64,000 bases of DNA from Isoetes taiwanensis (Eukaryota > Streptophyta > Lycopodiopsida > Isoetales > Isoetaceae), in NCBI GenBank assembly GCA_021234155.1, contig JAJEKV010000086.1, positions 3,149,461 to 3,213,460 on the forward strand, in the 5' to 3' direction. Shown here piece after piece: positions 1 to 53,041 of this stretch (position 1 is the first letter of the stretch; each line of letters begins with the position of its first letter). A program made the position numbers and the translations under genes. The notes beneath the pieces were generated by a model, which saw only the letters and a program-made list of their open reading frames with translations, made no database searches and was not told where the DNA came from.

Positions 1-300
1 GAGGCGGCTGTATGGGCACTAAGGGCACTTTCAACCACGGCCGGCCACAAGAAGTTAGCTCCTAACCTTGAGCAGATCATCCTGGTGAACCGTGATTTAG
101 CCATTGCAGTGTTTGACCATGAGATTGGTTCTTGGATGAACATGAGTCTGCTGGTCGCAGCGCCATTGGCCACCAATGTCCCTCCAGAGATAGCTTCATC
201 AGCTGCCTCGTCAGTTAATCCTAGTGTGCTACTCCTACAGCATCGGCCAGAGCCCGAGTTGGGTACCCAAGCACAGGATGCTGAAGGGTCGACTTCTTAG
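1..300 (+). CDS. Accessory 5' ORF of element A, C-terminal part
   Basis: Frame 1 is open from the first base to a TAG at 298-300. The product contains LVAAPLAT and ends in an acidic/serine tail. It aligns along its length with 36400-36815 of element C (for example NQDLALAA there and NRDLAIAV here), so it is a conserved accessory protein of this family and not a chance ORF. No known domain is recognised. It precedes another conserved exon-like block at 553-1001, separated by AT-rich sequence with a typical intron 3' end (TCTTGCAG at 545-552). Confidence 0.7.
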   Translation, partial: EAAVWALRALSTTAGHKKLAPNLEQIILVNRDLAIAVFDHEIGSWMNMSLLVAAPLATNVPPEIASSAASSVNPSVLLLQHRPEPELGTQAQDAEGSTS

Positions 301-552: not shown

Positions 553-1001
553 ACGAGACATTGGAGAGAATTACCGACCTGATTCGAAGGGATGATCCAG
601 GGCCTCCCGAGCAAGATTACGGCCAAAGATACGGGCAGTACCCGGAGCGAGATGGTGACTACGAGATGGAAGAACCTGAGGAGCCAGAAGAGCCTTACGA
701 TCCAGATAAGGGGATGGAGGTCGTTAACATCCTCAGGGAACGGGCCTTTGATGACCTGAAGCAGACCCTTTGCCGTACATGGGACTACTGGGATATGTCC
801 AGGCACGAAGCCTTTGAGGATGCCAACGATCACCTGTGGCAAATCTTCTATGCGTTAAGGCGGCTTTTCAACCTCCTTATTGTTAGCCCTACCTGGGATT
901 ACCAGCCTGTAATTGTTCAAGCCTGGGCTCGCTACAAGTTAGTGAGAGCTGTACGCGAGAGTACTCGCTACGCTATCTTGTACCCCTTCGCGAACCCCTA
1001 G
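553..1001 (+). CDS. Accessory 5' ORF/exon of element A preceding gag
   Basis: The open frame follows a plausible splice acceptor (CTTGCAG ending at 552) and ends at TAG 999-1001. The N-terminal half is acidic and charge-rich, with a run of EEPEEPEEP. The C-terminal half contains DHLWQIFYALRRLFNLLIV and the motif QAWARYKLVRAVRE. Element C has the matching DHLWELYRVMHDLFDLLII and QAWRKYNLVRSVRE at 37045-37344. Conservation between two diverged copies supports real coding. Function is unknown; it may be an accessory protein or be spliced to gag. Confidence 0.7.
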
Positions 1002-1220: not shown

Positions 1221-3020
1221 TTGAGGTTGTTGGAATACCGCTTATATTTTCTTATGCTCAATATATACGGTGCACGCAACGCCGCCTGGCAGACACCTTC
1301 GAATACTAGTAGGTTAACCCCTGAACAGGAACTCATGCTGATGAAAAGGCAACTAGTTGAGTTGCAAACTTATGTACTGAATACCAACCCACCGCAGCAT
1401 GCTCCGGAGGATGGACCAGAGTTACCTCCGTTACCACCAAGTCCCCCACCACAGCAGCCTTCTGCACCTGAATCCAGTCCTGCAACCATACCGAGGAGGC
1501 ACCGTTCCAAACGGCATCGAAGTTCCTCTAGGGACAGTGCAACCTCCTCCCAGTCAGCTTCTTCGAAGTCTTCTGAGTCATCGGTGTCATCTGATGGCCA
1601 TGCACATCGCCGGGACAAGGAGTACCGTAAAACGGTTGATACAGCTATAACCAGTATATGGAAAAATAGGAAACTGGCCCAATTTGATGGCAAATCTAGA
1701 GGTGGGCTGAATGCAGAGTCCTGGCTCGATGAAATGAAGGAGTTTGGGAAATCCTATGGCATGACAGAAAAGGATACAGGGAAGGTTGCCACCACAAACC
1801 TTACCGGAGCTGCCCGTATTTGGTGGAAGGGCTATGCCAGAGCCAAGCACCTGGACAGGAGCAGGTGCAAGTTCAAAAAGTTCGCCAAGGCTTTTAAGTC
1901 GCATTATGTGCCTCGTGCGCACAAATGCCAACAGATCCAGACCTTCTACAGGTTAGAGCAGAAGGGCATGTCAGTTCAGGCCTATACTTATGAGTTCATG
2001 CGCCTGAGGCTGTATGTACCAGGGATGAATGAAAAGAGGGCGGTGGAGGGCTACATTGAAGGGTTGGCCCCATCCATTAAACGAATGGTTAAGGCCATAG
2101 ACCCAAAATCAGTTGCAGAAGCGGAGGCTAAGGCATTAAGCCTCGAAGAGGACACACCAAGGAACCAGTATCCGCGTCCTGCTCCTTACTCGCAGCCACG
2201 CCCATCCACACCGTACAAACCCCGCTCACCAAGTCCGGGGCCCTCTCAGCAGAACTCCTACGGTCGCCAGGAAAAGAAAGTCACCTTTAACATGCCCGAC
2301 AAACCCAATAATGTTGGCAAGGAAGTTCGGAATCTCTTACAGTCTATTCCTAAAGAGGCCCGAGATCAGTTACGTAAGGATAAGGCATGTTACAGGTGTA
2401 TGCGACCCAGGCATTACATGCAGAATTGCCCTTACATCACGCAGACTGCCCAGCTGGCCATGGCTGACCTTGATTGGGACGATCTGGAGTCCACTCTACC
2501 TGTCGAGGACGAGGCTCCCGAATACATTCACGGTGCGTCTCATATTCTTGTCGCCATTGAAACTGGCAACGCTGAAAGTCAGCCTTCTGTTATTTCTACC
2601 ATAGGCCAAGTAGACAGTAAGCCTTTCATAATTTTGATGGATACGGGTAGTACGCATAATTTTGCTTCTCCTAGAATGGCCCAGGTATTGCAGCTTGAAA
2701 CGTTGAGATCCCGACCTAAGCCAGTCACGTTAGCCAGTGGTAAGATCAGGCACACTCATGGCCGCCGCATTAACCTTAAGATGCAGTTGCCAGGTGCACC
2801 AGTTGCCTTGGGTGCCGAGTTAATGGACATTGGCAAATATGATCTTATTGTTGGTATGGAGTTTTTGGCATCTGCGAAGGCCAATATAGACTGCGAGAAA
2901 CGGGAGGTTACCTTCAACGCCGCTAATGGAGCACGCGTGACGATAAAAGGTGATCCATTCAACCCTATTATGCAGTCTATGTCAATCAGGCAGTTAGAAA
3001 AAAGCTATACGCCGGGATAA
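1221..3020 (+). CDS. gag-PR: Gag with zinc knuckle and retropepsin-like protease
   Basis: This is a 599-codon frame. The real start is probably near 1265, where similarity to element C begins. Residues about 60-130 are low-complexity Pro/Ser. The retrotransposon gag domain follows at about 150-300 ([30 protein letters not shown]). A zinc knuckle [14 protein letters not shown] (CX2CX4HX4C) lies at about residue 390. A retropepsin active site, [13 protein letters not shown], lies at about 470. Gag packages the RNA and the protease cleaves the polyprotein. The frame ends at TAA 3018-3020 just where element C reads on toward RT, so this stop and the offset to the next frame are probably decay rather than the native junction. 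Confidence 0.9.
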
Positions 3021-3087: not shown

Positions 3088-5175
3088 TTGCCACAAGACA
3101 TTGCCAACCTTCTTCGAGAATTTAGCGATCTTTTTCCAGATGAGATCCAGAAGCTTCCTCCTTTCAGAGGGGTAGAATGTGAGATAGCTCTAGAACCAGG
3201 TACTAAGCCTACCAGTAAGGCCCCGTACCGTATGAGCCCTCCGGAATTGGCAGAGCTTAAGAAGCAACTTCAGGAGTTACTAAACCTAGGTTTTATTCGG
3301 CCTAGCGTTTCGCCTTTTGGCGCCCCTATCCTTTTTGTTAAGAAAAAGGATGGCTCCTTGAGGATGTGTATTGATTATAGGCAGCTCAATAAGCATACCA
3401 TCACGAATCGGTACGCTTTGCCTAGGGCAGATGATCTAATGGACCAGTTGCAAGGGGCCAAGTATTTCTCAAAGATCGATTTACGCTCCGGATACCATCA
3501 GATCAGGATAAAAGAGGAGGACATCCATAAATCTGCTTTTCGCACGAGATATGGGCATTATGAGTTCACCGTTATGCCTTTTGGATTAACTAATGCCCCG
3601 GCGACTTTCATGCGACTAATGAATGATGTCTTCCGACAATACTTAGATGATTTTGTTGTTATTTTCTTTGACGACATTCTCATCTATAGTAAGACTCTGA
3701 AGGAGCATGAGCAACATCTTAGGTTGGCCCTACAAAAGCTAAGACGCCATCAGCTCTTTGTCAAGTTCTCTAAGTGTAAGTTTGCGACGCCCAAGGTGGA
3801 TTATTTGGGGCATATCATTTCACCAGAGGGAATTGCTACAGATCCCGCAAAAATAGAAGCAGTAAGGGATTGGCCTATTCCGGGTAATGTTTCGGAAGTC
3901 CGCAGTTTCTTGGGGCTAGCAGGATATTATCGGAAATTTGTTAAGGATTTTGCAACGATCGCTGCACCTCTTACTGATCTCACAAAGCACGAGAAGGTGA
4001 AGGATTGGATGGAACATTGGAAAACAAAAGTCCAGGTAGGCTTCCAGAAGCTTAAGGATGCTTTGACGTCAGCACCAGTCCTCACTTTGCCCGATCCTGA
4101 AAAGGATAAATTAGTGGCAACCGATGCTAGTAAGATTGCTACCGGTGGAGTCCTAATGCAGGAGGGGAGAGTCATTGCATATGATTCAAAGAAAATGAAC
4201 GACACGGAGCAGCGATACCCTACCCATGATCAAGAATTGTTAGCAGTTGTTTGTGCTCTCCGCATTTGGAGACATTACCTTCTTGGTAGGAAATTCCAGT
4301 TGGATACGGATCATCAGAGTCTCCGTTATCTAACAACCCAGCCTAATCTCAATCTCCGTCAGAGAAGATGGATGGAGTTTCTCGAAGAATATGACTTTGA
4401 GATTATGTATAAACCTGGGAAGCACAATGTGGTTGCGGATGCGTTGTCACGCCATTCTTTAATAACCCGGACCCATTGTAACGCAATTTCCACACTCACC
4501 AGTGACTTTGGGAAGCAAATAGAACAGACCTTGGCCACAGATCCCGAATTCCGTGATATTTGGCGTAGTTTGAGCAAAGAAGCACGCACAGACAAAGAAC
4601 GCGAAGCTTTCCGTTCGTATAAGAAAGAGGGCAACTTGCTATACTGCAAAGATAAGTTGTGTGTACCTGAGACTTCAGGAGTGCGTAAGTTAATTCTCCA
4701 TGATACACACAACAGTCCTATAGCTGGACATGCAGGTTTTATGAAGACTTACTTTAAGATCCGCTCCAGCTATTTTTGGCCTTCGATGAAAAAGGATATT
4801 GCCAGATACATTAAGCAGTGTCAGGTGTGTCAACAAACCAAGGCTGAGCAATTAAGAATTCCAGGAGAGTTGCAACCTTTGGATGTGCCCAACGCAAAGT
4901 GGGAAGTGATAACCATGGACTTCATTGTGGGCCTTCCACGTACTCTCCGTGGATATGATGCATTAATGGTAGTGGTCGACAAATTGTCGAAAATGGCTCA
5001 TTTCTTGCCATGTCGTACCACCGACACCGCCTTCGACACCGCCCTGCTTTTTGCAAAGGAGATTTTCAGGTTGCACGGAATGCCAAGAGTTATTGTGTCT
5101 GACAGGGATCCCAAATTTGTAAGTGCATTCTGGAAAGACTTCTTCGCCACCATCCAGACCAAGCGCTTGCTATGA
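3088..5175 (+). CDS. pol: Pol: reverse transcriptase, RNase H and N-terminal part of integrase
   Basis: This 695-residue frame has RT motifs [31 protein letters not shown] and the catalytic [10 protein letters not shown] box (about residues 90-210). Gypsy RNase H follows ([23 protein letters not shown]; about 340-420). The integrase HHCC zinc domain is [10 protein letters not shown] with CQVCQQ (about 545-590). The integrase core begins with MDFIVGLP (first Asp) and VSDRDPKF (second Asp). It ends at 5175, where the expected continuation to the third catalytic residue is in another frame. The shift lies within about 15 bp of 5165, so the intact gene would be one gag-pol frame. Catalytic residues are otherwise intact. 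Confidence 0.93.
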
Positions 5176-6158
5176 GTACGGCCTATCATCCTCAAACGGA
5201 TGGTCAGACGGAACGTACCAATCGCATTATCGAGGATATGCTACGAAGCTATGTGTGGAGTAAGCAATCACAATGGGCCGACTATATCTACCTGGTAGAG
5301 TTTGCCTACAACAGTATGAAACAAGAGTCTTCCAGGATGTCTCCCTTTATGATAAATTATGGATATCAATGTCTTACTCCAGACACATGGCATAACCTTG
5401 TCTCCAAAGTCGAGGTTTCTCAACAACTCCTTTTGGAAATGCAAGCTCTAGTTGAAGAGGTTCGTGGTTACCTATTAGCTGCACGCAGTCGCCAGAAAAG
5501 TGTAGCGGATAAGCACAGAACCCCACGACTCTTCCAGGTGGGCGAATCAGTTTGGCTTAAGATCAAAGTAAAACAAGCCAAGCTTAAGATTGGTAACTGC
5601 AAGAAGTTGGCACCCAGATGGGCTGGCCCATTCAAGATTACTGAACGTGTTGGAGAACAGGCGTATCGCTTGGATTTACCACCCCGCTTGAAGATCCACA
5701 AGGTCTTTCACGTGAGTCTTCTGAAACAACACACCCCTGATCCAGACGAGGTTTTGGATACCCCAACCCTCCTAGAAATGATAGAGGAGCACCTGGAGAT
5801 AGTGCCTGAAGCTCTTCTTGATCGAGCTTATAAACAAACCAGAAGGACTCAAATGTTGCAATACTTGGTTAAGTGGAAACACTTACCAGTTGAAGATGCT
5901 ACCTGGGTGATGAAGATAGACCTTGAAAGGCACTATCCGGACTTCATGCGGGAATCTCAGGGCCGCACCATCAACGATGCTATCAACCCCGCTCCCGGCG
6001 GTAAGCTTGAAGGCTTGATTTACCGAGAATCATGCTCTAGAGGGGTAGATGCATCGTATCTTATAATAATAACCGATGATGAGATCACCTTTGTGTTCTC
6101 TAGGACGTGGTGTATTGTTGATGTTGACATGACCGCGCATTGCTTGGAAAGCATCTAG
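5172..6158 (+). CDS. Integrase C-terminal part with chromodomain
   Basis: The frame opens with [17 protein letters not shown], which carries the third catalytic residue (Glu) of integrase. The GPF/Y-type domain follows ([23 protein letters not shown]; about residues 150-185). A chromodomain lies at about 208-258 ([29 protein letters not shown]). Chromodomains on integrases of this clade are known to bind modified histone H3 and direct insertion. This frame overlaps the previous one by 4 bp in a different phase, a decay product and not a designed overlap. The C-terminal 60 residues after NPAPGG have no recognised domain. Confidence 0.9.
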
Positions 6159-6614: not shown

Positions 6615-8234
6615 TGTGACGTTCCACGTATTTATACGGTATACGTAACGTATTTATACGTGCACCCAGTAAAGGTACACCATTAGGGGGTACTATAACC
6701 TAGGGGGTTGTTCTAAAAGGGATTAAATCATTAAAGATAATAACCTATAACTTAGGGAATTAAGGTTCAAATGGATTAATTAGGCTAATTAATGCTTTGG
6801 GAAAGCGCCACCTGGCCTAAATCGATTGGCCAGCATGGGGACTTCCAAATTTGGCTGTCAACCTAACCCCTATCCCTAAGTAACTCTCAAATTCGTCCAA
6901 AAAGGAGCAGGAGCTGAGCGCCACCACCAAGCTGAGCGCCACCATACCAAGCGCCTGTACCTGTGTAGCTGAAGCTGAAACCCCAAGACCCAGGAGATGG
7001 AAGCACCCCATGGTAACGGATCCAAACCCGTAACTTCGTGGGTGGCTAGGATAGCCTGTGAATTCTAGGGTAGCGCACCTGTTGGGCCTTGGTTGTGATT
7101 GTTTCTCTGTTCTCTCTGTGTTTTAATCATAGGAACTAACCCTTGATTGTAAAGGTAAGTTCTCTTTATATTTGATTCTGGTTTGCTCTGAAAGGATGGA
7201 TTGTCAGCTCTTTGCCTAGTATTACTCTCGAAATGGGGGAATTACGGGGGGTAGAGACCTCTGAGCCCATTTATTGTAGTATGCTCCTAGATAGAGCCCT
7301 GTACAATCCCATTAAGTGCGGGCTGTGCACAAGAGCCCACCGGGTCATAGATGCTATGGACTGGCTTAGCACCAGACAAGGAACACAGTGGTGAAGTGGG
7401 GGTGGGGTCTTGCACGAACATAAAAGGCTCCTGAGACTCCTACGATGGGGCTAGGCCTAATAGCCGGCCCGATGAGCTAAGCGCATCCGGGCCGGGTATG
7501 GGTCTGACACTCCCTGGGTACAGAGGTGTGACCCGCATGGGGCATCCTGTACTTTGAGTAGATTTAGGGTGAGTAAGTCGGGAATCGCGGGGTCGCCGAT
7601 GCGCACGCATTCTCTAGCTCACCCATGGAACCACTGCGTGATTCTCGAAGGGGCCTCCCCGACCTGCCTCATCGGACCGGGGGCTTCATGAACCCCGGGA
7701 GTAGGCTCGATGGGGTGATACCTCGAGCACTGCGTCTCCCAAGGCTATAGCGGCCATATCGTGGATTGACCCATCCGCAAAGTGTGTGCAAGAGGGGCGG
7801 ATGGAGTGGACAACCCTAGCCGATGTTCTATGCCGATAACGCCAAAGTTATACCTCTGTCACGATCTCTTGAGGCCGAGCCGTCGATCTATCCTCACGAG
7901 AGTCGGGCAGGGGTAGACACGGGGTTTGGGGTGTTTTCTTAGTTAGATGCATATTCTTTGCAGTTGGTATTTGGATGGATGTGCCACCCTTCGTGGTGGC
8001 TATTTATATATATGATTTATGCTGTGTGCTAACATGTATTCACGCTTCTGCGACGTAGGATGTCCCACTGAAGGCGTGGGCCGAATGACACCTCCGTGTC
8101 CTTCACTCGGGCATCTTTCTATAGATGGCCCGGGGTAGACGGAGGGCCCTGCTCGTGGCGATATGGTCGCCATGGGAGGGGGAAGTCCCCGTATGTATAC
8201 GGCCGGGGGTCGTATATGTTCAGGGAGCGTCACA
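6615..8234 (+). repeat. 3' LTR of element A (1620 bp)
   Basis: It begins TGTGACGTTCC and ends GGAGCGTCACA, so both ends carry the same inverted TGTGACG. The complete LTR of element E (40283-41897, reverse orientation) has the same ends and nearly the same length. Internal blocks such as CTGTGCACAAGAGCCCA are shared with element C's 5' LTR and with a decayed piece near 17530. The 45-90 codon ORFs inside are not conserved and are left out. Confidence 0.9.
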
Positions 8235-22314: not shown

Positions 22315-22811
22315 GGTAAGGATGGGCAGAAAAGAACAGTGATTCAAAGGCGGAGGACGAAAGCCAAGAACGGAGGACGAAGGCGCAGAGGAACGAAAAG
22401 GTTTAGGGCGCACAACTGGAGTCGAAGAGGTATGATGAGGGCGAAACTGGAGCCGTTGATGATGCCAGGTGTCGAAAGATGCCAAGGAGTGCATTGAGAG
22501 GCAAAAATTTGGCTAAGACCCCAAAGAACTTAAGGGAGAAACAATGAACGGTGAGGATGAGACGTGAGAGAAAGATCGGATGTGACAGGTGGCCAAAGGA
22601 CACATATTAATGTTTGACGGGTATGAAAAGAAACAATGGCATTTAATGCTGGCAACTCGAAGAGGGATATCATTAAAACGAATGTGTCAGAGGGTACCCG
22701 GGCTAGATATGCGGCGGGAGAAAAGATTCTCAGTTTAGAAAGAGCCTTGCATTGCAAACACGTTGGCGAATTTCTGATTGGTCCACGTCGACTAGCAGGT
22801 CCTCGGTTGGC

Positions 22812-29800: not shown

Positions 29801-32220
29801 ATTATGCCAATTATTTTACCATTTGACCAATTGTAGACCTTGAAATGATTGGCGATTCTCATAGTGCGCAAAAGCCACATGAGATTTTCACAATTCAGTT
29901 TGGCACACGGTGAGAGTCCTTCAGAATTCTTGCACTGCGACTCGCATGAAACCAACAAAGCGCCCGATAGGCTTCTCATTCATCTCAGCAGATTTTCTAC
30001 AATGGTGGACAGTGGATAGCCGCACACATGCGAACTACCCACAAAAAATAAAGGGAAAATCCAATTATATCATTTGGACCCCAAAACAAATACAATGCTA
30101 ATAGATGAGTGGCTGATGTACCTGCCGAAAACTTATCACCGGGATTAAAAAACCCCGCCCTTTCGGGTTTTCGAGGAAAAACCCTAGTGATAAGCCTTCG
30201 GCAAGGGGCTTAGACAAACGTAAGGCATAGAATCGCTCCCAAAAACCCGCGCATGGAGAAGTCAAAACGGATGGCGCTCGCCAACCTGTACCTGCACATC
30301 ACCAACAACAAACGAGAAACATACCAAAGAATAGCATCACCCAGTGGGTGGAAAAAAAGCATCACCCACCGGGTGAAAAAACATGATAAACAGAACTTGT
30401 ACAAAATATAATAAACAAAGAAGGGGGGGAGGGTGGGTTCAAAGAGAATAAGGTGCTGGCGAGAGAGAGGAAGCGCCGATGAAACGTCGATGAAGAACTC
30501 TGCAATAAGTAGCAAACGCCCAACCTGATGAACGGCCCAAAACGCATGCGATGCATGCATGCGACGCATGCAATGCATGCATGCTCGTCTTGAGCAAGAA
30601 TGCCGATTCGCTACGCGAATCGACGACATTTTAGGTGAAATATTTTTAGGTTGACTTTAATTTGGACGTCCCCAACATTAATAGAAGTATAGATTTAAGC
30701 CTATATTAGTTAGTGAACAACCCTCTAGTGATAGACCAACATAGAATTGCTAAACTTGTTCAAATCCGACAACTTTTTTTTTTTAACCCTAAAATTTCTA
30801 GATCTAGTTTTCTATGAATAGCCTCCCATTTATACAATTTAACCAGAAGTCTTTAGCTCCTATAAAAGAGAGGATTTCTCGGCACACTTAGACGCTTCAA
30901 TGTCCATTTGACATAGTCAGTTTTACAAATATCATAGCGTCGCCCGCATTCAGACGATGGTACATCGACACTGCACATCTCAAAGAGACAGATGTCAACC
31001 AGATCTATAAAGTCTTCCAATACACCTTTAACATCCAAGCCACCTTGACCACCACTCCTTACTACCACAACATTATGGCTGAGTTCCTAAGCAGGAAGGA
31101 AGGAAGGAAGGAAAAATTTTAACGTCAACGGGTTATCTATAAAGTCTTCCAATAAGAACATGGGCTTTAAACCAAAGCACAACGTGAGCTAGAACACAAC
31201 CATCATGACCCGGATTAAAACTTGACCACCACTCCATACCTACTACCACAACAACTCAACCGTTAACCTGGTCTGAAACAGACGCCTTCCTAAATCGCCC
31301 CATCGGAGGTGCCTCCTCACCCATCCTCCAGTTCCAGGGGTAGGAGTCACCGTATGCACGCTGAGACAAGTCCTCCATGCGAGGGACTCTACATTTCCAA
31401 GACAGCTCTAGCGAGTGCTAGGGAAGGAAAAGGGTAGAGTCCACGGCTAGACAAGTCCTCCATGTGGACAATGTTATAAAAGCATTATGGAATAAAGTTT
31501 CTCAAATGCAGATTGCATGTTCATGAGTCACAGTGAAGGGAAAGGCATATGTTTGAAACATTTCAAGCGAACGGTGTAGATTATAAGAGACGAATTAATG
31601 GAAGACTGGATGTAATAGCAGCTAAGGGCATAATTTTCATACAACCTTTCTAAATAGAGTGGCACTTAACTAATAAATAGGAGTGGGAATAGGCATGGCA
31701 TGGAATGGGAGCAGGCCTCCCATGCATGCATGTAGAATTTTAGTGTATTCGGATGGTTGTGTAATGAAAAATATTGGAGATAAGGAACCGGAGCATTGCA
31801 TTCGATGAACATCTAGTTGGTTATTTGTAGTGGCAATTTCCAGGTAACAATTCCTTGTAACGTAGAAAACATTGTAAATGACTGGAAGGCGTATTAAGTA
31901 GAAGCTTTGGTTTTTAATAGTTAATTTATGTTGTCAATAGATATTCTTTAGGCATTGCTTGGAGTACTCAATTATATATGGTTTTTTTGTTATTGGTGTG
32001 GATGTGTAGATTTGTTGCTAATGAATTAGAATTCTTGAGCAATAAGGAATGAACTCAATTGCAAGCATTCATTTTGTAGTGCTGGAAGAATTGAGAAAGG
32101 CAAACATAGGCGCATCCATGAACTGTCTATTTGTGTATGTCCATGTAGTATCTATAACATTTAACAGCTAAAGTGTAATACAGTACCATAGAGGTGAAGC
32201 TTGCACCATTCTACATGCAG
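29801..32220. other. Unassigned DNA with hairpins and short tandem repeats
   Basis: 29806-29960 resembles 18600-18700 on the other side of B (shared GAGATT-TCACA and GGTGAGAGTC blocks), as expected for DNA split by B, perhaps with an older local repeat. Two near-identical palindromic units lie at 30344-30385 (CATCACCCAGTGGGTG and CATCACCCACCGGGTG). A GCATGC-rich patch lies at 30543-30584. An 8-bp perfect hairpin CGATTCGC/GCGAATCG lies at 30604-30622. A local duplication (31005-31070 and 31134-31250) encloses (GGAA)4-5. No convincing gene is seen; the 139-codon minus ORF over the palindromes has no support. Confidence 0.5.
30123..30203. repeat. 81-bp near-perfect inverted repeat (MITE-like hairpin)
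   Basis: The left arm TGCCGAAAACTTATCAC pairs with the right arm GTGATAAGCCTTCGGCA with 15 of 17 matches. The interior (AACCCCGCCCTTTCGGGTT and GAGGAAAAACCCTAG) extends the fold. No obvious target duplication is seen. Confidence 0.7.
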
Positions 32221-33171
32221 CCTGTGCACAAGAGCCCACCTGGCTATAGATGCTATGATGTGATTCAACACCAAATAACAAGTATGATGGTGAATTGAGG
32301 GTGGGGTCTTGCCTAGCGCGGCTACAGGACTCCTACAGTGTGCTAGGCTTATAGCCGGTCACGGAGAGGGCCGGGCATGGGTCCGACACTCCCTGGGTCG
32401 CAGCTGACATGCCAAAAGTATGTGGGCACCCTGGACTCGAACGGGCAGGTGAGCCGTCCTTTAGATTTAGGGGAGTAATTCGGGTACGAATGCGGGGGTC
32501 ACTGAGGTGGCACGTATTCTCTAGCACACCCAGGAATCCATCATGCCCGGGGGTCACTGAGATGGCACGTGTTCTCTAGCACACCCAGAGATCCGACCTG
32601 CCTCATCGGACTGGGGAGATATAACCCAGAGTAGTTCCATAGGGTGATTCCATGGGATTGCGTCTCCAGAAGGCTACAATCATGCCATAGCATGTTCCAG
32701 CCTAGTTGCAAAGTGTGCACAGGAGGGGCGGATGGATTGGACTACCCTAGCCGTTGTTCTATGTCAACCAACGCCATTGTTATGATTTCGTCTGTTGTTA
32801 TCTGGAGGCTCTGACTGTCATTTGATTCCCATGAGTCTGAGCCGGGGTAGAGCCTTATTTATGATGCATTTCCTTGTTATGTTGATATTCTATTGCATTC
32901 TTATGGATGATGATGGGCCACCTTTCGTGATGGCATATTATTTATTTGTGTTGTTGCCAGGTGCTAACCTTGTATGTATGCTTCCGCCATATAGGATTCC
33001 CATCGAAGGCATGGGACGAATGACACCTTCGTGTCCTTCACCCGGACACTTGCCATCACAAGTGGTCCGAGTCAGACGAAGGGCCTTTCCATGGTGGTAT
33101 TGTCGCCATGGAAGAGGGGATTTCCCGTATTTATATGATGAGAGCATCGTATAGGTTCGGGAAGCGTCATA
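32221..33171 (+). repeat. 5' LTR of element C, lacking about the first 700 bp
   Basis: Similarity to the A LTR begins at CCTGTGCACAAGAGCCCACC and continues in order (GGGTGGGGTCTTGC, CACTCCCTGGGT, GTGCACAGGAGGGGCGGATGGA, GAATGACACCTTCGTGTCCTTC) to the end GAAGCGTCATA, a mutated CGTCACA. Nothing before 32221 matches the LTR start, so the 5' portion is deleted or replaced. Confidence 0.85.
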
Positions 33172-33172
33172 A

Positions 33173-33184
33173 TGGTATCAGAGC
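33173..33184 (+). other. Primer-binding site of element C (initiator tRNA-Met)
   Basis: TGGTATCAGAGC lies one base after the LTR end, complementary to the 3' end of plant initiator tRNA-Met. The leader from here to 33830 has no gene. Confidence 0.95.
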
Positions 33185-33830: not shown

Positions 33831-34370
33831 ATGGCCCGCACCAAGGGAACAAAGAGCTATTCCTCTTGTAATGTCTTCCAACTCTTCGCTGAGCTTGGCC
33901 GCAATATCGGTGTCACAACCGACGGCCCTAGGAAGGTCGAGCTCCTTCTCGAGCAGCTAGTGCTGAGGTTTATCGAAGGCGACCGGATATCATACCCTAT
34001 TTTCCACCTCACCGAGAGATTTTTGTTGAAACTGAACGCTGAAGGGGAGACCTATACTTTGGTGGAGCAAGAAGACCAGGTTTTGACCCTTGTTCGTTAT
34101 TATCCCTCGGACATGCCCCAAGATGCTGCCGATGCCGATGCTCGTCAGGAAGCCGAAAGGATTATGGCAATGGCGCAAGAGGAGGACGTCCAGCAAATCG
34201 CAAGTGGAGACCCAGTTGTCCGAGGACAGGAGTATGTTTATCTGGGAAGAGGGAGGGCCATTACACGAGGGTGCAACTTTACCCTGCCTCCCTATCACTA
34301 TAAAGAGGACGCCATCTTCATATGGGAGGATATACCGAAACCTTTCACTCCAGAAGACTTGCAACCTTGA
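33831..34370 (+). CDS. Element C ORF1, N-terminal part, begins MARTK
   Basis: A 179-codon frame begins at ATG 33831. The first residues MARTKGTK match the start of histone H3 (MARTK) at five positions. The body (FQLFAELGRNIGVT, LLEQLVLRFIEGDRISYPIF, LNAEGETYTLVEQEDQVLTL) has no recognised domain and ends near FIWEDIPKPFTPEDLQ. Just past its stop the sequence stays protein-like in a second frame (KIYRRTEVRML, then a TAG, then EQHAEQQASRLAEEQARE and the repeat NRVEEPANHVEEPANR up to 34611). It then reaches the H3 frame. I infer one original protein of about 390 residues with a C-terminal histone fold. Confidence 0.7.
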   Translation: MARTKGTKSYSSCNVFQLFAELGRNIGVTTDGPRKVELLLEQLVLRFIEGDRISYPIFHLTERFLLKLNAEGETYTLVEQEDQVLTLVRYYPSDMPQDAADADARQEAERIMAMAQEEDVQQIASGDPVVRGQEYVYLGRGRAITRGCNFTLPPYHYKEDAIFIWEDIPKPFTPEDLQP

Positions 34371-34613
34371 CATGGCGGCCCGGCCCGACTGATATCTTGG
34401 AAAGATCTACAGGCGCACCGAGGTACGCATGTTATAGGAGCAGCATGCCGAACAACAAGCGTCTCGGCTAGCAGAGGAGCAGGCAAGGGAAACTACCAAG
34501 GACACTGCCAATCGTGTTGAGGAGCCTGCCAACCATGTCGAGGAGCCCGCTAACCGTACCATACAACGCAAGCGGAAGATCACTAACCCGACGCGCTTGG
34601 GGCCCTAGTATAA

Positions 34614-35023
34614 AACCCGACTGCAAGCGATTGGTGGGGTGACAAAGCAGAAGGGGACACTCGTCGGGAGAATTTAGTCGAGCGGGCCCGGCATCCAGCC
34701 ACTGGAGGCAAGACCCTTCCCCTTGTGCCCGCACCTCGTCAGAGGAAGCCCCACAGGTTTAGACCGAGGACAGTGGCCTTGCGGGAAATCCGGAAGTATC
34801 AGAAGACGATGGAGCTCCTCTTGCAGAAGCTACCCTTCCACAGGAATTTAAAACAGACCTCAGGTTCCAGACCCATGTTATTCTTGCTTTGCAGGAAGCT
34901 GCCAAGGATTACCTCGTCGCCCTCTTTGGCGGCGCCAACCTTTGTGCTATACACGCTAAGCGCGTGACTATTATGCCAAAGGATTTGGCCTTAGCACGTA
35001 GGATCCGCGGGGATCGAAACTAG
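34614..35023 (+). pseudogene. Histone H3-like domain of element C ORF1 (H3.3-type), frameshifted
   Basis: One frame gives ATGGK, then [20 protein letters not shown] and ELLLQKLPF. After a shift of frame near 34840 it gives [36 protein letters not shown], and ends [10 protein letters not shown] at TAG 35021-35023. This is alphaN, alpha1, alpha2 and alpha3 of histone H3 in order. The only gap is the eight residues expected between LPF and QEF, consistent with a 22-bp deletion that also causes the frameshift. His and Leu occupy the positions (87 and 90) typical of plant H3.3. Substitutions relative to H3 include GT to RT, EDT to GGA and IQ to LA. There is no intron in the fold. A true host H3 gene would not sit between this LTR, PBS and gag. 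Confidence 0.93.
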
Positions 35024-35170
35024 ATCCCCCATTTTGTAATATGACTGTATCTTTTTGTATCTAAGTTTTTATAATTAATACAATGTTGTATATTATCGGC
35101 TACGTGTATCACTGTCTGTTCCTTCATGCAAACAACACACATAAATCTCGAGTTCAAAATAATAATAATA

Positions 35171-35307
<137 letters not shown>

Positions 35308-35433: not shown

Positions 35434-35938
35434 ATGGATTATGCCAAGCGCCAGCAGTGGTACCAAGATGGAGAGCACTGGGACTCTCAGGTCCCATTTG
35501 AGCTTCTCCACCCTTATCTATTGCAGCAGGTGGATCTCATAACCAACATGGAGGCTCATCCCGATTACTCCGATTTCTTGGAGTTCTACACCCAAGAAAT
35601 GGTTCCCCAATGCCGACCTTATGGCGATCCTCCACAGCTCTATCTTCACTGGGACATACTCATACAAATGCTAGGTGATGATTGACACGTGGAGGATAAT
35701 CTTCGAGGCATTCAGCGCCGCGCAACATGCTCCCATTCTTCATCTTGGCCACCAGCAAACTTATTTTGAGGTCCGCTTTGCTTTGGCCATTCTCATGGAC
35801 CAATATATGGAAGCTGACTCCACTCCATGGGAAAAAGGGAAGGTACCTATTTCTGACGATCCGGAAGAAGACGAGCGCGTAAGCCATACCGATTTTAACC
35901 GTTGGAAGCAACTCGCTGCCGAACTACCCGTGCCCTGA
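35434..35938 (+). pseudogene. Element C ORF2, one frameshift
   Basis: It starts MDYAKRQQWYQDGEHWDSQ after a plausible splice acceptor. It runs to GDD at 35685 and continues in the next frame from about 35675 (DTWRIIFEAFSAAQHAPI, RFALAILMDQYMEADSTPWE) to PVP and a stop at 35938. It is aromatic-rich and acidic. No homologue is visible in element A because the window starts after this point. No domain is recognised. Confidence 0.55.
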
Positions 35939-36229
35939 ACTCAGGGCCGCAAGCTCGCCAGACTAGTTGGACTTCCTACGATTCTTCTCAATATTCAAGA
36001 GTACCTGCTGCTCGATGATATTTTGTGGGCATACCATGTAATCGCCAAATGAGGAAAGACAATATTTTGTACGAGTTAGCGGAATACTGTCAAGGTGATT
36101 TTATTGATTTTTCACCTCCCGAGTACCCCCCACAGGTCTAGCAGTTGCTTAGGTTCCATCCAGAAGATCTAGAACCTGTCGAAACCTTGCTGGAGTTGCG
36201 ACATCTCATGTACAGGCCCCTCCTTGTCC

Positions 36230-36815
36230 CCCACCTGAAGATGCTTTTGCTGCTATGGGGCCACAAGTCCCTAGCATCAATGACATGGTGATACCTATGG
36301 ACAAGGACGATGAGGGGGAGGATCTCTATGATAACAAGGACCATCTCAAAGAGGAGAAGGAAAAAATCTATGAGGAGGGTTACAGTGAAAGGCAGAAGTG
36401 GCAACCTCCACATATCCGGAGGTAGCAGCCTTGAAGAACCATCTCACAAGATTCTTCCTCTCAGCTTTTCGCCAAGGCCAAGTGCTATTCTTTTCCAAAG
36501 CGCTCGCTCCAGAGGCCGAGGCATTCTTTTGGTCACTAAAGGCCTTGTCCGCTATGGCAGGACATAGAAAGCTCCCCTCCAATCTTCATGTTGTGATGCT
36601 CGTAAATCAGGATTTAGCACTTGCTGCTCTAGGCCAGGATATCGCCGCCTGGATGAGCATGAGATGCTTGTAGCCGCACCCTTGGCTACTGCCTTCCCTT
36701 CCGCAATTGCATCAGCAGCCGCCCTCACGATCAGCCCCGGTGTCGCCTTGCTCCGCCAGCGACAACCACCAGAACCCCCTACAGACATGGATCAGGATGC
36801 AGGACCTAGTTCCTG
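36230..36815 (+). pseudogene. Element C ORF3, counterpart of the first ORF of element A
   Basis: An acidic stretch (MDKDDEGEDLYDNKDHLKEE) leads, after a frameshift near 36415, to EVAALKNHLTRFFLSAFRQ, FFWSLKALSAMAGHRKLP and LVNQDLALAALGQDI. After another shift at 36670 comes LVAAPLATAFPSA and the end DQDAGPSS. The part from FFWSLKAL aligns with positions 1-300 of the window. Confidence 0.65.
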
Positions 36816-37021: not shown

Positions 37022-37344
37022 ACACTCCGCCAACGGGTGGGAAATTGTCATGCTCCTTCAGGACAAGGCCGTTTGCAACTTACAAACGCAAGATACAGAG
37101 GGGTTGGGACTATTGGGAGTCCACCAATGTGGACGCCTTCCACGATATTGACGATCATCTGTGGGAACTTTACAGAGTGATGCACGACTTGTTTGATCTT
37201 TTAATTATAAATTCAACCCTAGCATACCAGGCCATCATCATCCAAGCATGGCGTAAATATAACTTAGTGCGCTCAGTGAGGGAGGACTATATTGATATGA
37301 TACTACATTCCTTTGGGCAACCAATGTATGACCATCTTGTATAA
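37022..37344 (+). CDS. Element C ORF4, counterpart of 553-1001 in element A
   Basis: It follows the acceptor-like CACCTGTTACAG. It contains RGWDYWESTNVDAFHDIDDH, LFDLLIINSTLAYQAIIIQA and KYNLVRSVRED, matching the A copy position by position, but lacks most of the acidic N-terminus seen there. It ends at TAA 37342-37344. Confidence 0.65.
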
Positions 37345-37503: not shown

Positions 37504-38870
37504 ACGGCGCACGTTTCCCTCCGTGGGTGACGCCCATGGAACCAGGCTGCCTTACGCTTGAACAGGAATTGCTTATCACTAAGCGCCAGATGGCGCAACT
37601 CCAACAATACGTCCTGCAAAGGCCTATAGGCCCTGTCATGGCAGAAGAGGGACCAGAAGTGCCAGTCACCGAGGTGGCCCACCTACGCCGACCCGATCTA
37701 AACGTCGCCGCCATTCTTCATCTTCGGACAGTAGTTCTGACTCATCAGATTTTGATGACTCTTCTGACTCCTCCCCCTCTAAGCAGGACCATGATAAGCC
37801 CAAAAAGAAGGATTATCAGAAGACGGTGTATTCTGCCATTACTAGTATTTGGAAAAACCACAGACTTGCTCAGTTCTCTGGTACTTCCCGTTCTGGTGTG
37901 GATGCGGAATCGTGGCTCGACGAGATGCGAGAATTTCTCAAATCTTACGGAATGATGGAGAAGCACATTGGCAAAGTAGCTACCACTAATCTTACCAAGT
38001 CCGCACGAATTCGATGGAAAGGGTATGCACGCTCGCATGAGCTCAATAGGGGACATTGTAAATTTAAATCTTTGCCAAGGCCTTCAAGTCCCACTATGTT
38101 CCTCGGGCACATCGCTACAAGCAGATACAGACGTTTTATCGCTTGGAGCAGCGCGGCATGACAGTCCAGGCCTATACATATGAGTTCATGCGCCTTCGAC
38201 TCTATGTTCCAGGGGTCACTGAACACCGTGCAGTTGTGAACTCCCAGCTTTGGCGGAGGAGGAAACGACTGACTATATACAAGGTGAGTCTCACATTTTT
38301 GCTGCTATTGAGATTGGTCAGGCCGATTGTCAACCCAGTGTCATCTCTATAGTGGGTCAAATTGATAGCAAACCTTTTATTATCCTCATGGACACGGGTA
38401 GTACCCACAAATTTGCATCCCCTAGGTTGGCTGAAACTCTGTAGTTATCCCCCTTGAAATCTAAACCAAGACCAATCACATTGGCTAGTGGAGCTGTTCG
38501 CCACACCCAAGGCCATCGTGTTAATTTGAACATCCAATTACTAGGGGCACCCATCACTTTGGGAGCTGAGCTTATGAATATTGGAAAGTATGACTTGATT
38601 GTGGGGATGGAATTCCTAGCGACAACAAAGTCGAATATAGATTGTGAGAAGCATGCTGTCACCTTCAACGCAGCAAATGGGGCCCGCGTGACTATAACAG
38701 GTAATGCAATCCGTTCTATAATGCAGTGCATCTCCTTGCGTAGCTTGAAAAAAGCTATTCGACGTAGGCAGGTGGCTGGTATTGTTAGGCTTGCGTCCTT
38801 TGAAGCCAAGCAAGAAGAAATCATTCAAGAATTGCATGATTCACGAGTTCTAAGACCTCTTTCCAGATGA
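37504..38870 (+). pseudogene. Gag-protease of element C with internal deletion
   Basis: It begins after TATTTTAG with text matching A gag (GCLTLEQELLITKRQMAQLQ). It carries the gag domain ([38 protein letters not shown]) over several frames. Sequence equivalent to A 2040-2500, including the zinc knuckle, is missing at about 38236. The protease keeps [16 protein letters not shown]. The text then runs to KKAIRRRQVAGIVRLASFEA, joining the RT region. Confidence 0.85.
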
Positions 38871-40282
38871 GATTCGGAAGTTACCACCTTTTAGGGGGGT
38901 AGAGTGCGAGATTGCACTCCAACCAGGTACCAAGCCTACCAGTAAGGCTCCTTACTACATGAGTACACATGAGCTAGCAGAACTTAAGAAACAGTTACAG
39001 GAACTTCTGAACCTAGGCTTCATTCAGCCCAGTGTTTCACCTTTTGGAGCTCCTATCTTGTTTGTTAAGAAGAAGGATTATCGATTATCGCCAACTAAAT
39101 AAGCATGTTGTTAAGAACATATATGCATTACTGAGGGCCGATGAGCTTATGGATCAGCTACAAGGAGCTATGTATTTTTCCAAGACAGATCTTCGCTCTG
39201 GCTACCATCAAATAAGGATTAAGCAAGAGGACATTCACAAGTCCACTTTCCGCACTCGTTATGGATATTATGAGTTCACAGTTATGCCTTTTGGACTCAT
39301 TAATGCACCAGCAACCTTCATGCGTCTCATGAACGATGTCTTCAGAGACTATTTAGACGAGTTTGTCATTATTTTCTTTGATGACATTCTTATCTATAGT
39401 AAAACCCTGGAGGATCATGAATGCCATCTTCGGCTGGCCCTCCAGAAGTTGTGGCGCCACCAATTCTTTGCTAAGTTTTCCAAATGCAAATTTGCGACCA
39501 CCAGGGTCGACTATTTGGGCCATATTGTTTTAGCTGATGGTATAGCTACAGACCCGGCAAAAATTGAGGCAGTCAAAGAGTGGCCGGCTCCTACCAATGT
39601 CTCAGAAGTCAGAAGTTTCCTGGGGTTGGCAGACTATTATCGTAAATTCGTTAAGGACTTTGCTAAAATTGCAGCACCCCTTACTGACCTAACCAAGCAT
39701 GAGAAGGTTAAGGATTGGGCAGCACATTGGAAAAGCAAGGTTCAATCAGGCTTCCAATAGCTGAAGGATGCCTTAACGTCGACATCCATCCTTACTTTAC
39801 CTGATCCTCAGAAGGATAAGGCGGTTGCGACTGATGCCAATAAGATAGCCACATGAGCTATTTTGATGCAAGAGGGACGAGTCATAGCCTATGACTCTAA
39901 GAAAATGAATGACGCAGAACAGAGATATCCCACTCATGAGCAAGAGTTGCTTGCGGTCGTGCGTGCCTTGTGCATCTGGCGGCATTATCTTCTTGGACGG
40001 TGGTTCCAACTAGATATAGATCACCAAAGTCTCCAATATATCTTCACACATGCTAATCTCAATCTTCGGCAATGCATGTGGATATAATTTTTGGAGGAAT
40101 ATGGCTTTGATGTTTTGTATAAACCCGGGAAATATAATGTTGTTGCAGATGCCTTATCTCGGCAGACATTGACCACAAGTACCCATTGCAATGCCATTTC
40201 CACTCTAACAAGTGAATTTGGGAAGACTATTGAGCAATCTCTTCCAACGGATCCCGAGTTCAGCGAAGTGGGTCAGCCTTTC
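38871..40282 (+). pseudogene. Pol of element C (RT-RNase H), truncated by element E
   Basis: [20 protein letters not shown] is followed by a short deletion where A has [10 protein letters not shown] then continues with [32 protein letters not shown] and [10 protein letters not shown]. RNase H follows ([29 protein letters not shown]), and then [14 protein letters not shown]. In-frame stops occur (for example TAG at 39757). Similarity to A ends at TDPEFSE just before 40282. Confidence 0.9.
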
Positions 40283-43584: not shown

Positions 43585-45432
43585 TAATCGTGTTTTCTTA
43601 GTTATGGTGCTTAGTATGGTGGTGCATGTGGTGGTTATTGTGTTGTACAGTGATTGTGGTATACTGTATGCAGCATGTGAATTGTGTGTAGTTGACTCTA
43701 GTCTGAAATGCAATATTTAATGTTTGGAATATTATTAGAACATGACATAATTGAGTACTCCTTTACTGGGTGTGTGTACAGTCTAAAAATACTTGAGCTA
43801 TAACTAACTGATCCTGAGATACAAATTTTTGTTGAATAAAGACAATCAGATTCAAGCACAGCTCTGTTGGAAAGTATGATATATTAAAAAAAGGATCTTA
43901 CAAAATTTGGCTTTACAAAATTTGGCTTTCCATTGAAAGCTCACATACGAGAACTAAATTTACATGCATGATTTCCTAAACAACGGGAAATCTTTGGTAT
44001 GACTGCTCTCGAGAACCTGGTGCATCCAAAATTATTGTTTTACGCACTAAAGCATTTAAGCTTTCTGCGATCATCCCGAATTTAACGGGATGAGGTTTGC
44101 GGTGCTTCACGCATCCTCACGGTGGTAAGTACGCAATTACGCCCGGTAAAATCCGCTTTCTTGCAGTCGGAGCGGACAAGTGACAGAGAACAAATATACC
44201 CGTGCCCCCTTGCGGCGGCGGCATGTAACATAAGCTCATGAACTCGTCTAAGAGCTCTCTTTACGTCAATCGACTCAAGCATAGCCATTGAAGGCCCAAA
44301 GATCCAAATTGTTTGTATGCCTTTAGGTTGGATTCGAAATCAGCAAAGAAGGTGGATTTAGGCATATCCACCTTCGGAGATTTATCCGCGAGCCCCTGTT
44401 TAACATGTGCGAATGCCCTCCTCGGTCACCCTACAATAGCCGTAGTGATCTCTGAACATGGATCCTACCATGTTGTCGGAATGAACTTCTTCGATTTGGC
44501 GCGAATTGGGAATGAAACGCCAAAAATCAGACGTAGGAACAGGATTTAGGACCCAGATCCTTTTCTAATGATTAGAAGAGGAATGTAATTATTATCAGGG
44601 TGTACGAATTTCAGAAGTGTTTATGAGAGCAGGCTAGGCAGATTTTTTATGTCAGACGAAATAGGATAAAAGTGATGTGATGTGATGTGTGGTGTCGTGA
44701 TGGTGTGGTGTGGTGTGGTGTGGGTTGCGTTATGTCCATGGTGTCATGTGGGTGTGTGCATGTTAATGTATGATCTGGAGAATCTCCCCCCTCACCCCAC
44801 CACACCCCATCTATCCCACCACCATAGACTACCACCACATCTTTGCGACCACCACATTACCACCACATGCACACACATCCCACCACATCCCACGCCACAC
44901 CCCTCCACCACCACCACCACACTCCACCACCACCACGTCACACCACAATCCACAACACCACACCACACCACCACCACTACACCCCCCACCACACTCCACG
45001 ACCACCACCACCCCACCACCACACTCCACCACACCACATCATAGCACCACACACCCACTACACACACCACCACCACCACCCCCACCACCACACCACACAC
45101 CACCCACCACCACCACCCCCACCACCCCCCCACCACCACACCACACACCACCCACCACCCCCCACCACCACCACACACCACTCCCACCACCCCCCCACCA
45201 CCACAATCCACCACCACCACCCCCTACCACCACCTCCACCACCACTCCACACTCCACCATTTGGTGTATGGTGTGTGGTGAATGGTATGGTGTGTGGTGG
45301 GGTGAGGTATGGTGTGTGGTAATGTACACAAAGACTAAGGTGCTGGATTAAGTGAATATGATGAGTGTGGGGCATGGTATGGTGCATGGTTTGGTGTGGT
45401 ATACACATCCTAACAGTTTAGTGTTCATTTCA
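43585..45432 (+). other. Probable intron of the transposase gene, carrying the left satellite
   Basis: It lies between coding text ending YLEESH and the acceptor CATTTCATGCAG at 45421-45432. It has no coding similarity. Its first kilobase is AT-rich non-coding DNA; its last part is the CCA/TGG array. Confidence 0.6.
44690..45415. repeat. Left CCA/TGG satellite of element F
   Basis: A short TGG-type part (44690-44735, TGGTGTGG units) is followed by about 470 bp of CCACCACC/CACCACACC units on + (44790-45260), then TGG-type units again (45262-45410). Opposite orientations side by side can form long hairpins. ORFs of Pro/His/Thr or Gly/Val/Trp across it are artefacts. Confidence 0.95.
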
Positions 45433-50063: not shown

Positions 50064-53041
50064 CTCCCCCCCACCAAACGACACTCAGAGTGAAGAAAAG
50101 GAGGAAGTGTTTCTGAGGGCGGGAAGCCATCTGTCTGAAAGTGATCCTCTCGGGAATGAGGTCGGGCACCATTATAGTACTGGCTAATGAGGTCCTGGCG
50201 GGATTGCAGAGCAGGAGGTGTGTTGATGCCAAGGGCGGGATCTCATCAATGAGGAAGCGAGGCGGACCATATCTTCAAAAGGCGGCATGGGCGTTTGAAA
50301 AAACGAAACCCGACATTCCATGAGGAGACAGTGCGGAGGCCGAAGGCAACGGTTAATCGCATTCGGATTGCAGTGAAAAATTGGGCGCTGCCGATTTAAG
50401 GAGCTGAGCAAGAGGCATTTGAGAGCAGCACAAAAACCTGCTTGAAGATGAACTGAAGGATCTGGTGAGGTGGTGGCATTATGCATAAAGGTGTCGAGAC
50501 CATGAATCGCATCTGCCGGGCGTTGCCAACCACGCTCATTAGCAATATAGATCCAATTTGTGGTGGTATCAAGAGTGGCACCCTCCTCCCAATGGGAACG
50601 GCAAACAAAACGGGGATCCCACCGGAGATCCGTCGAGATCTGAGGTGGAGTCCATCCAGCATGGCCATCCATGACCTTTGTCCAAAAGGGGAGGCGCCAA
50701 TCAGAAGTCAGGAACCTGGGGCGTGGAGGAACACCCAGGGAAGCATAGGGAGAAGGAATCATGCCCGTGGGCGTGGGTTGCTGAGCTGTCTCCCTGAATT
50801 GACTGACAAGAGCCGGATCAAGTGCTTGACACCAACGATCCCAAACAGAGGCAGGAAGTTGAGAGTAGACAGGAGGGCTATCCCAACCCGGGGGGACGGT
50901 CTTGCTATCCAGCAGAGCACGTAATTGATTATAACCTGCGAGGTGCTGCATATAAACTTGTGCATAGGGAAGATCTTCGGGATGTCCCAGATACTTCCTT
51001 ATCTGTTGCAGCGCTTCCGCTTGCCAGAGAGGTAAATGATTGGCAAGCTCAGGCATGTACTCCTGATGAAGAGTGTGGGTCTGAGCATGATCAGCAAGAT
51101 AGGGGTTGTGATCCTGAAGCAACCATTGCAAAGTGGGGTCACCCTGAAACATCTGGCGTCGCCCATCGCGAAAGTTTTCCTGTGTATCACCCAGGTAAAA
51201 ATCATGAAAAATGTAAGCCATGGGCTGAACAACTCTGAAGGTGACAAAGTCTGGATCGGCGCAGTGTATGAGATCAAAGACCAAAAGGGCACAGCATAAA
51301 CCTTTGTCTTCAATGGTGAGTTCGGGCCAGATCCGAAGAAAATCTGCAGTGGGCAGGGGAACATCCACAGGTCCATCAGCCGCATGCCACTTCAGAAGGA
51401 ATAGGTGGCGGCGGGCAACCACATAATCATGATAGGAGGAAGGAACTGGGAAGTCGAAAGGCAGGTTGTTGACAATGGCGTGATGGCCGTCAAGTTTTGC
51501 TTGAGCCTCATCAGCAGACTGAATAGCTTGCTGTAGCTGTTGTTCAAGATCACGGATCCGGTTGTCCTTTTCTAGCGTAAAGATTGGTCACGGACCCGTT
51601 TACGGCGTTGATCTGGGAGGAGGATTGCCCGGAGCATTAAGGCGGAAGCGCGGCAATCTCCGCGTCATCAATAATCTTCTGTTTTACGTACCTCGTAAAA
51701 GGCGATCTTGGAGAGGTGAGCTGAGAGGTTTGTGTAGAAAGCTGAGCCGTCAAGGATGCAATTTGAGCATCCCGCTCTGTAAGGTTCTGAACTTGAGAGT
51801 AGTTTGTCACAAAGCTCAGAGTACAAGGCGTCGAGCTTAGAAATATCTTTTTCCTTGGCACCCAGGAGAGTGTCTTTGGACTTGTTTTGCTCCAACAAAT
51901 TCTGAATTTCTGATTGGAGCTGAGCCTGTTGATCGGCAAGTTGGCTGACCTGATCCTGTGCACTTTTGAGATCTGTATGAGCCTGTAAGAGAGCTCCGTG
52001 CTTGTCTTGAAGTTTGGCCTCCAAAGTTGCAACTTGGGCAGTGGCAGCTTGAAGGTCACGGTGTACTGCATCAGAGGCCTCTAGTGCCGTTTGAACCCCA
52101 TTCATAAGAGCTTCTTGGGATTCTTGTAACTTTAGAACAGCAGCTTGAGCATCCTGCTGATACTGATACAACAGCTGACGAGGGTGCTGTGGTGGTGGAG
52201 CCTGCTGTGGCCTGTTTTGTGATGTTTGGGAGATATGGTGTGAACTGGATGGTGTAGCAGAGGAGGAGACAGTGACATGGGAGTGCCGATTTTGGTCATG
52301 ACCAGGCGAAGAAGGGCGTGAAGTGCCAACTTGGTGAGTCTTGGGAAGGGACCGCTGAGTGGAATTATGAGAATTTTGTGGTGTGGGAGGAAAGTAATGA
52401 CGGACAATGGCTTGAAGGTGGCCTCCCACAGAAACTTCAGAAATGGAAGTGGCACCCCGAAGGCGGTCCACTTCTTGGAGAAGACGGTAGAACAGCAATT
52501 GGGGCCAATCTATGTGGTGGTTGGAGTGTGTAGCCGTGAGCACCATATTATAGAAAGGCTTATTGATATGGGTGTTCTTGATAGAATACCCAAGGAACTT
52601 GCGCCACAGAAACTTAACAAAAGTTTCATGGGGTTTGTCGATATTTGTCAGGCGATGTACATTGGCATGATAAGGAGGTGCACCAAACTCAGTGACATCT
52701 AGATCCTGTAGGGCAGACCAAGATAAACAAGGAGTTTGCAAAGGAATATGGAATACCTCTGATATCAGGTGTTGAGTGAGCGAAATGGTGGTGCCATCGA
52801 CCACTGTGATGTATCCATGCGGGCTGTTGACGATGTTAGCGATGAACTGCTTCAATTGTGCAGGATTTGGAGCCGGGAGTTCCATTTGAGAGAATTCGTA
52901 AAGCTTCTGGTGTTCGGCGACTTCACGATTCGGGCCAACAAGGGCGTCTCGGAAAGTGGGTGTCAAGAAGGAGACAGATTCAAAAAGAGCCGGGTCCCTG
53001 GAAGCAGTAGCTTGAAGTGTAGAAAATTTTGGTGCAGCCAT
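49736..53041 (-). pseudogene. Extra 3' ORF of element D, frameshifted
   Basis: It starts at ATG 53041 (MAAPKFSTLQ) and is the counterpart of 19180-22314. It is open to about 51840 through the N-terminal region and coiled coil, broken around 51570-51830 by indels, and open again 50184-51422 (ARRHLFLLKWHAADGPVDVP). It ends in a third frame inside the LTR with a basic tail (KRRLSRREVTRPPPRRQYK) and a stop at 49736. The tail differs from B because the LTR sequences differ here. Confidence 0.85.

Follow-up and report, generated by a model that had tools for sequence, protein, structure and literature searches.

A large family of chromodomain Ty3/gypsy retrotransposons in Isoetes taiwanensis carries a near-unchanged histone H3 core

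Element C and its neighbours in the window

The window analysed here is the whole stretch of 64,000 nucleotides of Isoetes taiwanensis DNA. On its plus strand we found a decayed LTR retrotransposon, element C, with a histone H3 segment. The element opens with a 5' LTR remnant (32212..33172), which at the DNA level matches the 5' LTR of a complete element, in retrieved locus L033, at 72-74%. It is followed by the primer-binding site (PBS) TGGTATCAGAGC at 33173..33184, an exact motif present at the same position in other copies, which presumably pairs with initiator tRNA-Met. The N-terminal part of ORF1 (33831..34370) is open over 179 aa and consists of a MARTKGTK start and a new domain. By tblastn it aligns with the intact ORF1 P0003 over residues 1-179 at 66% identity, and no Pfam family matched it above the cut-off. 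Downstream lie a decayed linker with stops and other frames (34371..34724, tblastn of P0003), the first H3 piece (34725..34850) and, in another frame and including a stop codon, the second H3 piece (34841..35023).

The Pfam Histone family PF00125 matched the window at 34614-34850 (residues 38-77, E 3.4e-8) and, in the other frame, at 34853-35020 (E 6.5e-19). The second piece also matched a solved H3.3 in the PDB at E 2.1e-23. Comparison with sibling cores revealed a small frame-shifting deletion that removed about 8 residues after PFHR, as the first-pass annotation of this DNA had described. That annotation had also placed an H3 fold between the LTR/PBS and gag. The fold is real, lies in two frames, and its position was borne out by the PBS at 33173 and gag remnants from 37506. 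It is not a free segment, however: positions 34725-35020 encode the C-terminal domain, now decayed, of the ORF1 that begins at 33831. Because this ORF1 carries stops, frame changes (its N-terminal part is in a different frame from the H3) and the deletion, the copy in element C is non-functional.

The remainder of element C is also on the plus strand. It comprises a decayed ORF2 (35434..36813; 49-86% identity in pieces to L033 ORF2 by tblastn), a decayed ORF3 (37027..37323; 41% identical to the element A ORF3), a decayed gag-protease (37506..38759; 47-85% identity in pieces to element A) and a truncated RT-RNase H (38836..40270; 80-88% identity to element A). An (ATG)n simple repeat occupies 35159-35305, between ORF1 and ORF2.

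Element A enters the window from the left. Its 5' LTR (L031 4818-6462), PBS (6463) and ORF1 (7156-8405), with the full H3 core at L031 8112-8405, lie outside the window and were located by the LTR pair, the PBS and tblastn. The window itself holds, on the plus strand, the ORF2 end (1..294, tblastn) and ORF3 (561..1001), which is open over 146 aa and is 78-83% identical to its counterparts in elements C and B2. These are followed by gag-protease (1221..3020; PF19259, PF03732, PF08284), RT, RNase H and the integrase start (3088..5175; PF00078, PF17917, PF17921, PF00665), and the integrase end with a chromodomain (5172..6158; PF00385 Chromo at E 8.7e-8, PF24626). The 3' LTR (6615..8234) is 94.7% identical to the 5' LTR and is followed by the 5-bp target duplication GCTAC.

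A further family, D, is represented by one broken copy beyond the right end of the window, at a distance of 7.4-8.6 kb (ORF1 at L049 8560-7436, minus strand). Its ORF1 reads MARTKQTARK, then a charged linker, then an H3 that is divergent and interrupted by a stop and a frame change; gag and RT follow. Its gag is 52-54% identical to those of A and C, and its RT 78-79%. H3 was present in all three elements of the H3-bearing clade with pol (A, C and D) in the 84 kb of window and flanks, a small number of elements. The other gypsy elements of the window have RT 27-36% identical to that of element A, and none of them matched H3 at an E value below 1.9. Another gypsy-type element, lacking H3, is represented by two related copies at 19180-22494 and 50184-53329 (minus strand), with a long ORF (1104 aa in one of the two). 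A lone H3-like C-terminal fragment at 18398-18475 (57.7% identity, E 3.1e-5) has a stop and lies outside any ORF1. Long simple repeats at 10480-10670, 44800-45350 and 62100-62800 comprise (GTT)n and CCA-rich arrays that give spurious ORFs.

Sibling copies and the architecture of ORF1

We searched the whole assembly (1,658,258,908 bases in 1110 contigs) with the H3 pieces of the window, and scored the best 150 of 7514 first-look candidates. All 150 places matched at E 3.9e-37 or better. Among these best 150 of 7514, the match contained a stop at 15 places, and 41 places were open and stop-free over 390 aa or more, an intactness that is biased upwards because the scored places are the best-scoring part of the candidates. 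Most copies, element C of the window included, are decayed. The first-pass annotation had named a lone H3 copy, or a lack of open frames among siblings, as evidence against its proposal; neither was found, since many open siblings carry H3. A chance insertion of an H3 pseudogene into one element is likewise rejected, because siblings carry H3 in the same place and many of them are open.

A second search with plant H3.3 as the query gave 9031 candidates, of which the best 150 were scored. Fifteen of these places matched at 97-99% over residues 1-136 (273-281 bits), and the score then fell to 193 bits. The remaining 135 rows matched at 72-87%, and 45 of the 135 were open over at least 390 aa without a stop. 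By this score gap we take the 15 places to be host H3 genes and the 135 to be of the element type, two of the 15 and a minority of the 135 having been read individually.

The elements read with both LTRs are about 12-13.4 kb long, and their LTRs of 1.5-1.65 kb have the ends TGTGACG...CGTCACA. Their order is LTR, PBS, ORF1 with H3, ORF2, ORF3, gag-protease, RT-RNase H, integrase-chromodomain and LTR; no ORF3 match was found in L037. Both LTRs were in reach in 5 of 9 retrieved pairs, one of them element A, and all five elements have exact 5-bp target duplications (GCTAC, TTATC, TCCAT, CCGGC and ATGTG). LTR divergence (K80) was 0.034-0.081, and the gag-pol frames of the retrieved copies are broken by mutation or assembly errors. 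Two LTRs with a short duplication, gag, protease, RT-RNase H and integrase in this order (by Pfam in element A, with the same order in others), and the chromodomain at the integrase C-terminus of element A agree with a Ty3/gypsy chromovirus. An H3L-bearing hAT transposon was considered and rejected, as the elements have LTRs, RT and integrase instead of terminal inverted repeats and hAT transposase. ORF2 (L033 4613-5985) and ORF3 (L033 6255-6692; window 561-1001) are kept between families, had no Pfam match at E<=0.5 in L033, and may act together with ORF1. In two family-B copies (L043, 5929; L045, about 5957) the match ends at the same place near the ORF2 end, and in L043/44 it resumes 12 kb on (L044 8365), which marks a nested insertion.

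In siblings, ORF1 reads through without interruption for up to 415 residues and is made up of an H3-like start (MARTKGTK), a new domain of about 200 residues, a linker and a complete H3 core. The core has the H3 histone fold (PF00125 at E 2.9e-41 in P0003 and 4.3e-41 in the L041 ORF1) and is 83-87% identical to plant H3.3 in families A, B and C. An intact N-terminal tail with K4, K9 and K27 in context is absent. Because the tail is split by about 280 residues, we describe ORF1 as an H3-derived protein and not as a canonical H3.

The first residues of ORF1 vary between families. Alignment from residue 1 was found in 22 of the 30 retrieved loci (20 starting with MARTK, one with MAPTK and one with MATKK), and the other 8 have no judgeable start. 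Families A and B depart from the MARTK start, with METPK in A and MAITK or MDITK in B, and family D, the most divergent one seen, has the first ten H3 residues exact, Met included. The linker before the core is basic, and in family C it contains a stretch ending RKPHRFRPG that resembles H3 26-44. The simplest reading is that the H3 tail was split by inserted sequence. An origin from CENH3, which we take to have a longer loop 1 than H3, is rejected, because the cores align to host H3.3 without insertion or deletion.

No relatives of the ORF1 N-domain were found elsewhere at E<=10, either with residues 1-312 of P0003 (6212 candidates) or with the seven-row alignment A1 (7999 candidates), in a search that requires shared 5-residue words. 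With the whole ORF1 as the query, H3 proteins dominated the best 120 of 5424 candidates, none of which covers more than 45% of the query. The fold of the N-domain predicted from the window sequence alone had a mean pLDDT of 38.7, too low for use.

Selection on the H3 core and its origin

Between families, the core is 86-92% identical and the rest of ORF1 25-46%, at saturated synonymous sites, and the core pN/pS is about 0.06-0.11. This high identity of the core, set against the low identity of the rest of ORF1 at saturated synonymous sites, indicates that strong selection keeps the histone. In nine open ORF1 copies, B and C were compared part by part: identity was 39% (N-domain), 25% (linker) and 90% (H3 core); the respective pN/pS values were 0.51, 0.69 and 0.09, with pS 0.79-0.80 in all three. 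These nine copies were picked for an open ORF1, so decay is not reflected in the comparison. A larger codon test kept 30 of 39 entries, after removal of 2 without an ungapped full core, 4 duplicates and 3 with stops, and yields no values for family A.

Within family B all core protein sequences are the same at pS 0.106, and within family C the core pN/pS is 0.056, compared with 0.22-0.28 in the rest of ORF1. Comparing A with B and C, we found 86-89% identity in the core, 32-40% in the rest of ORF1 and a core pN/pS of 0.09-0.11. RT, wherever its frame is undisturbed, gives a pN/pS of 0.07-0.18, so constraint on the core and on RT is of similar strength. The core of family D, read from a single broken copy, is 59-60% identical with pN/pS 0.33-0.49, which may reflect weaker constraint or decay.

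Synonymous sites of the core are saturated between families (pS 0.78-0.99); on this ground we reject the idea that host H3 genes recently converted the element cores and so made them alike. We also compared element A with L033/34, L041/42 and L047/48, and found that synonymous divergence among A, B and C was pS 0.34-0.68 in gag-pol, 0.74-0.99 in ORF1 and ORF2, and 0.66-0.97 in ORF3. Since gag-pol pS lies below that of ORF1-ORF2, this suggests that the 5' module and gag-pol may have been swapped between lineages.

A tree of H3 sequences, which had been proposed along with the selection test when the locus was first read, places the element H3s in one clade next to plant H3.3 (support 94.1/98, with D represented by one 59-residue piece). 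This clade joins H3.3, and not the H3.1-type gene of the host, at weak support (84.3/75). Seven residues, derived relative to what we assume to be the plant H3.3 sequence, are common to A, B and C, and D has three of the seven. At position 77, where plant H3 presumably has D, both host genes read have E, as do A, D and the ERP-ending C copies; Q77 occurs in B and most DRN-ending C copies. Because the element H3s form one clade with the host H3 genes apart, the best reading is that an H3.3-type gene of the host lineage was likely captured a single time. Independent captures are unlikely for A, B and C, given the seven shared derived residues, and for D, given the three it has and the tree.

The first-pass annotation had taken two marker residues as signs of an H3.3-type source, and the intronless fold as a sign of cDNA capture. 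Of the markers, H87 is informative and L90 is less so, being present also in the one host H3.1-type gene read. All 15 host H3 places match residues 1-136 in one open frame; since the host H3 genes are intronless too, capture through cDNA is not demonstrated. Its central claim, that the element captured a host H3.3-type gene, is supported by the many open copies, the LTRs with 5-bp duplications, the single clade and the strong purifying selection on the core. Taken together, this sequence evidence makes it highly probable that a chromodomain Ty3/gypsy lineage captured one H3.3-type gene of its host lineage, which became and stayed the C-terminal domain of ORF1, with the tail split by about 280 residues.

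Possible roles of the element histone and known systems

Mobile elements are silenced largely via marks on histone H3. That a large Isoetes element family carries a near-unchanged H3 core suggests that the core is used in dealing with host chromatin. The first reading of the locus had proposed packaging, nuclear import or chromatin targeting, and H3 may serve any of these. We tentatively favour, at slightly less than even odds, a role in which ORF1 would enter the host histone supply. The core would pair with host H4 and be bound by host H3-H4 chaperones, and ORF1 would then join the host route of histone supply and deposition. It would thereby bring into chromatin either nucleoprotein of the element or, on element DNA, an H3 with an altered tail, working alongside the integrase chromodomain. 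For the whole explanation, capture together with this chromatin mechanism, we put the probability at about 0.5.

Conservation within the core is in line with such a role. In family D, 22 of 24 core residues at 108-131, which we take to be the H3-H3' and chaperone face, are identical to the host, compared with 34 of 64 at 44-107 (Fisher p 0.0009). As this face is, to our knowledge, conserved in H3 relatives generally, the pattern supports the mechanism but does not prove it, nor does it single out chaperone binding. Several features count against the role: most copies are decayed, A and B lack the MARTK start, and the D core, known from one broken copy, has an identity of only 59-60% and the higher pN/pS of 0.33-0.49.

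A stronger form of chromatin entry, which we regard as possible but rather unlikely, is that ORF1-H3 is an element-made histone variant. It might replace host H3 on element DNA or at target sites, forming a private nucleosome whose new-domain tail could not be read or written by host silencing as usual. A little less probable again is an anti-silencing role, in which an ORF1-H3 nucleosome would form on unintegrated or new element DNA with a tail in which the usual surroundings of K9 and K27 are missing; host methyltransferases would then be unable to mark it, and the element would remain transcribable. The replacement of the tail after the first residues in A, B and C, the H3.3-type source and the conserved histone surfaces are consistent with this, but family D keeps K9 in MARTKQTARK.

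The same conserved core surfaces could instead serve a decoy. ORF1 might titrate host chaperones, H4 or H3 modifiers and weaken silencing generally, without entering nucleosomes, and thousands of candidate gene copies (7514 at first look) make a high dosage possible. We consider this improbable, as a decoy would need fewer conserved surfaces than were observed, and the core positions that we take to be DNA-contact residues are kept in B and C. More doubtful still is a structural role, in which the H3 core would bind element RNA or cDNA, or dimerise within the virus-like particle, without host histones. ORF1 is indeed encoded with ORF2 and ORF3 beside gag, and a basic linker precedes the core, but without H4 the 86-92% retention of H3 residues between families is not expected. 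Finally, a functionless gene fragment copied along as a passenger is very improbable: although the window copy is broken and captured genes in LTR elements are often present in one or few copies (excerpts of PMC7264820), the core is under purifying selection at saturated synonymous divergence, one capture is common to several families, and the codon pattern in the copies tested already contradicts this reading.

An LTR lineage that conserves its own H3 core through several subfamily splits suggests that an element can take part in chromatin and need not only read it. ORF1 also offers a natural tail-swapped H3 for testing nucleosome assembly, chaperone choice and silencing escape.

Among the matches listed in the open-access literature, no LTR retrotransposon carrying H3 was reported, which does not by itself establish its absence from print. 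Excerpts of two reviews (PMC7264820, PMC12786077) name no H3 as an additional ORF or host factor. A passage of the Isoetes genome paper (PMC8566536) states that repeats similar to plant proteins were removed from the repeat library; this filtering may have removed the H3-bearing elements, which would explain why they were overlooked.

With Ty3/gypsy chromoviruses, as described in parts of two papers (PMC3350952, PMC2864245), the Isoetes elements share LTRs, PBS, gag, protease, RT-RNase H and an integrase with a chromodomain. They differ by 4.5 kb of leader, in which three additional ORFs precede gag; the H3 core is in the first of the three. Orchid Ty3/gypsy elements with a 2-ODD (m6A demethylase) domain likewise captured a host domain and kept it as an additional ORF, but the excerpted account (PMC9289625) concerns an RNA demethylase in 25 kb elements, with no histone. 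Histone sequence was also captured by a rolling-circle element, a Culex Helentron (PMC4067079), but as fragments disrupted by a stop, a frame shift and indels.

Among the matches listed, the closest parallel is H3L of the fungus Pyrenophora tritici-repentis, where a hAT DNA transposon carries it (Manning et al. 2013, PMC3538342, in part). As in Isoetes, a mobile element family bears an H3-like gene in many copies, and ESTs are reported for H3L. The fungal element has terminal inverted repeats and 26 nearly identical copies in one genome, and its H3L is a separate ORF with a core that has diverged from H3 and is suggested to drift. In contrast, the Isoetes elements are LTR retrotransposons of four families, with H3 fused to a new domain and a core under strong purifying selection. 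N-terminal tail insertions are reported for the fungal H3L, as found here in ORF1, which hints at convergence.
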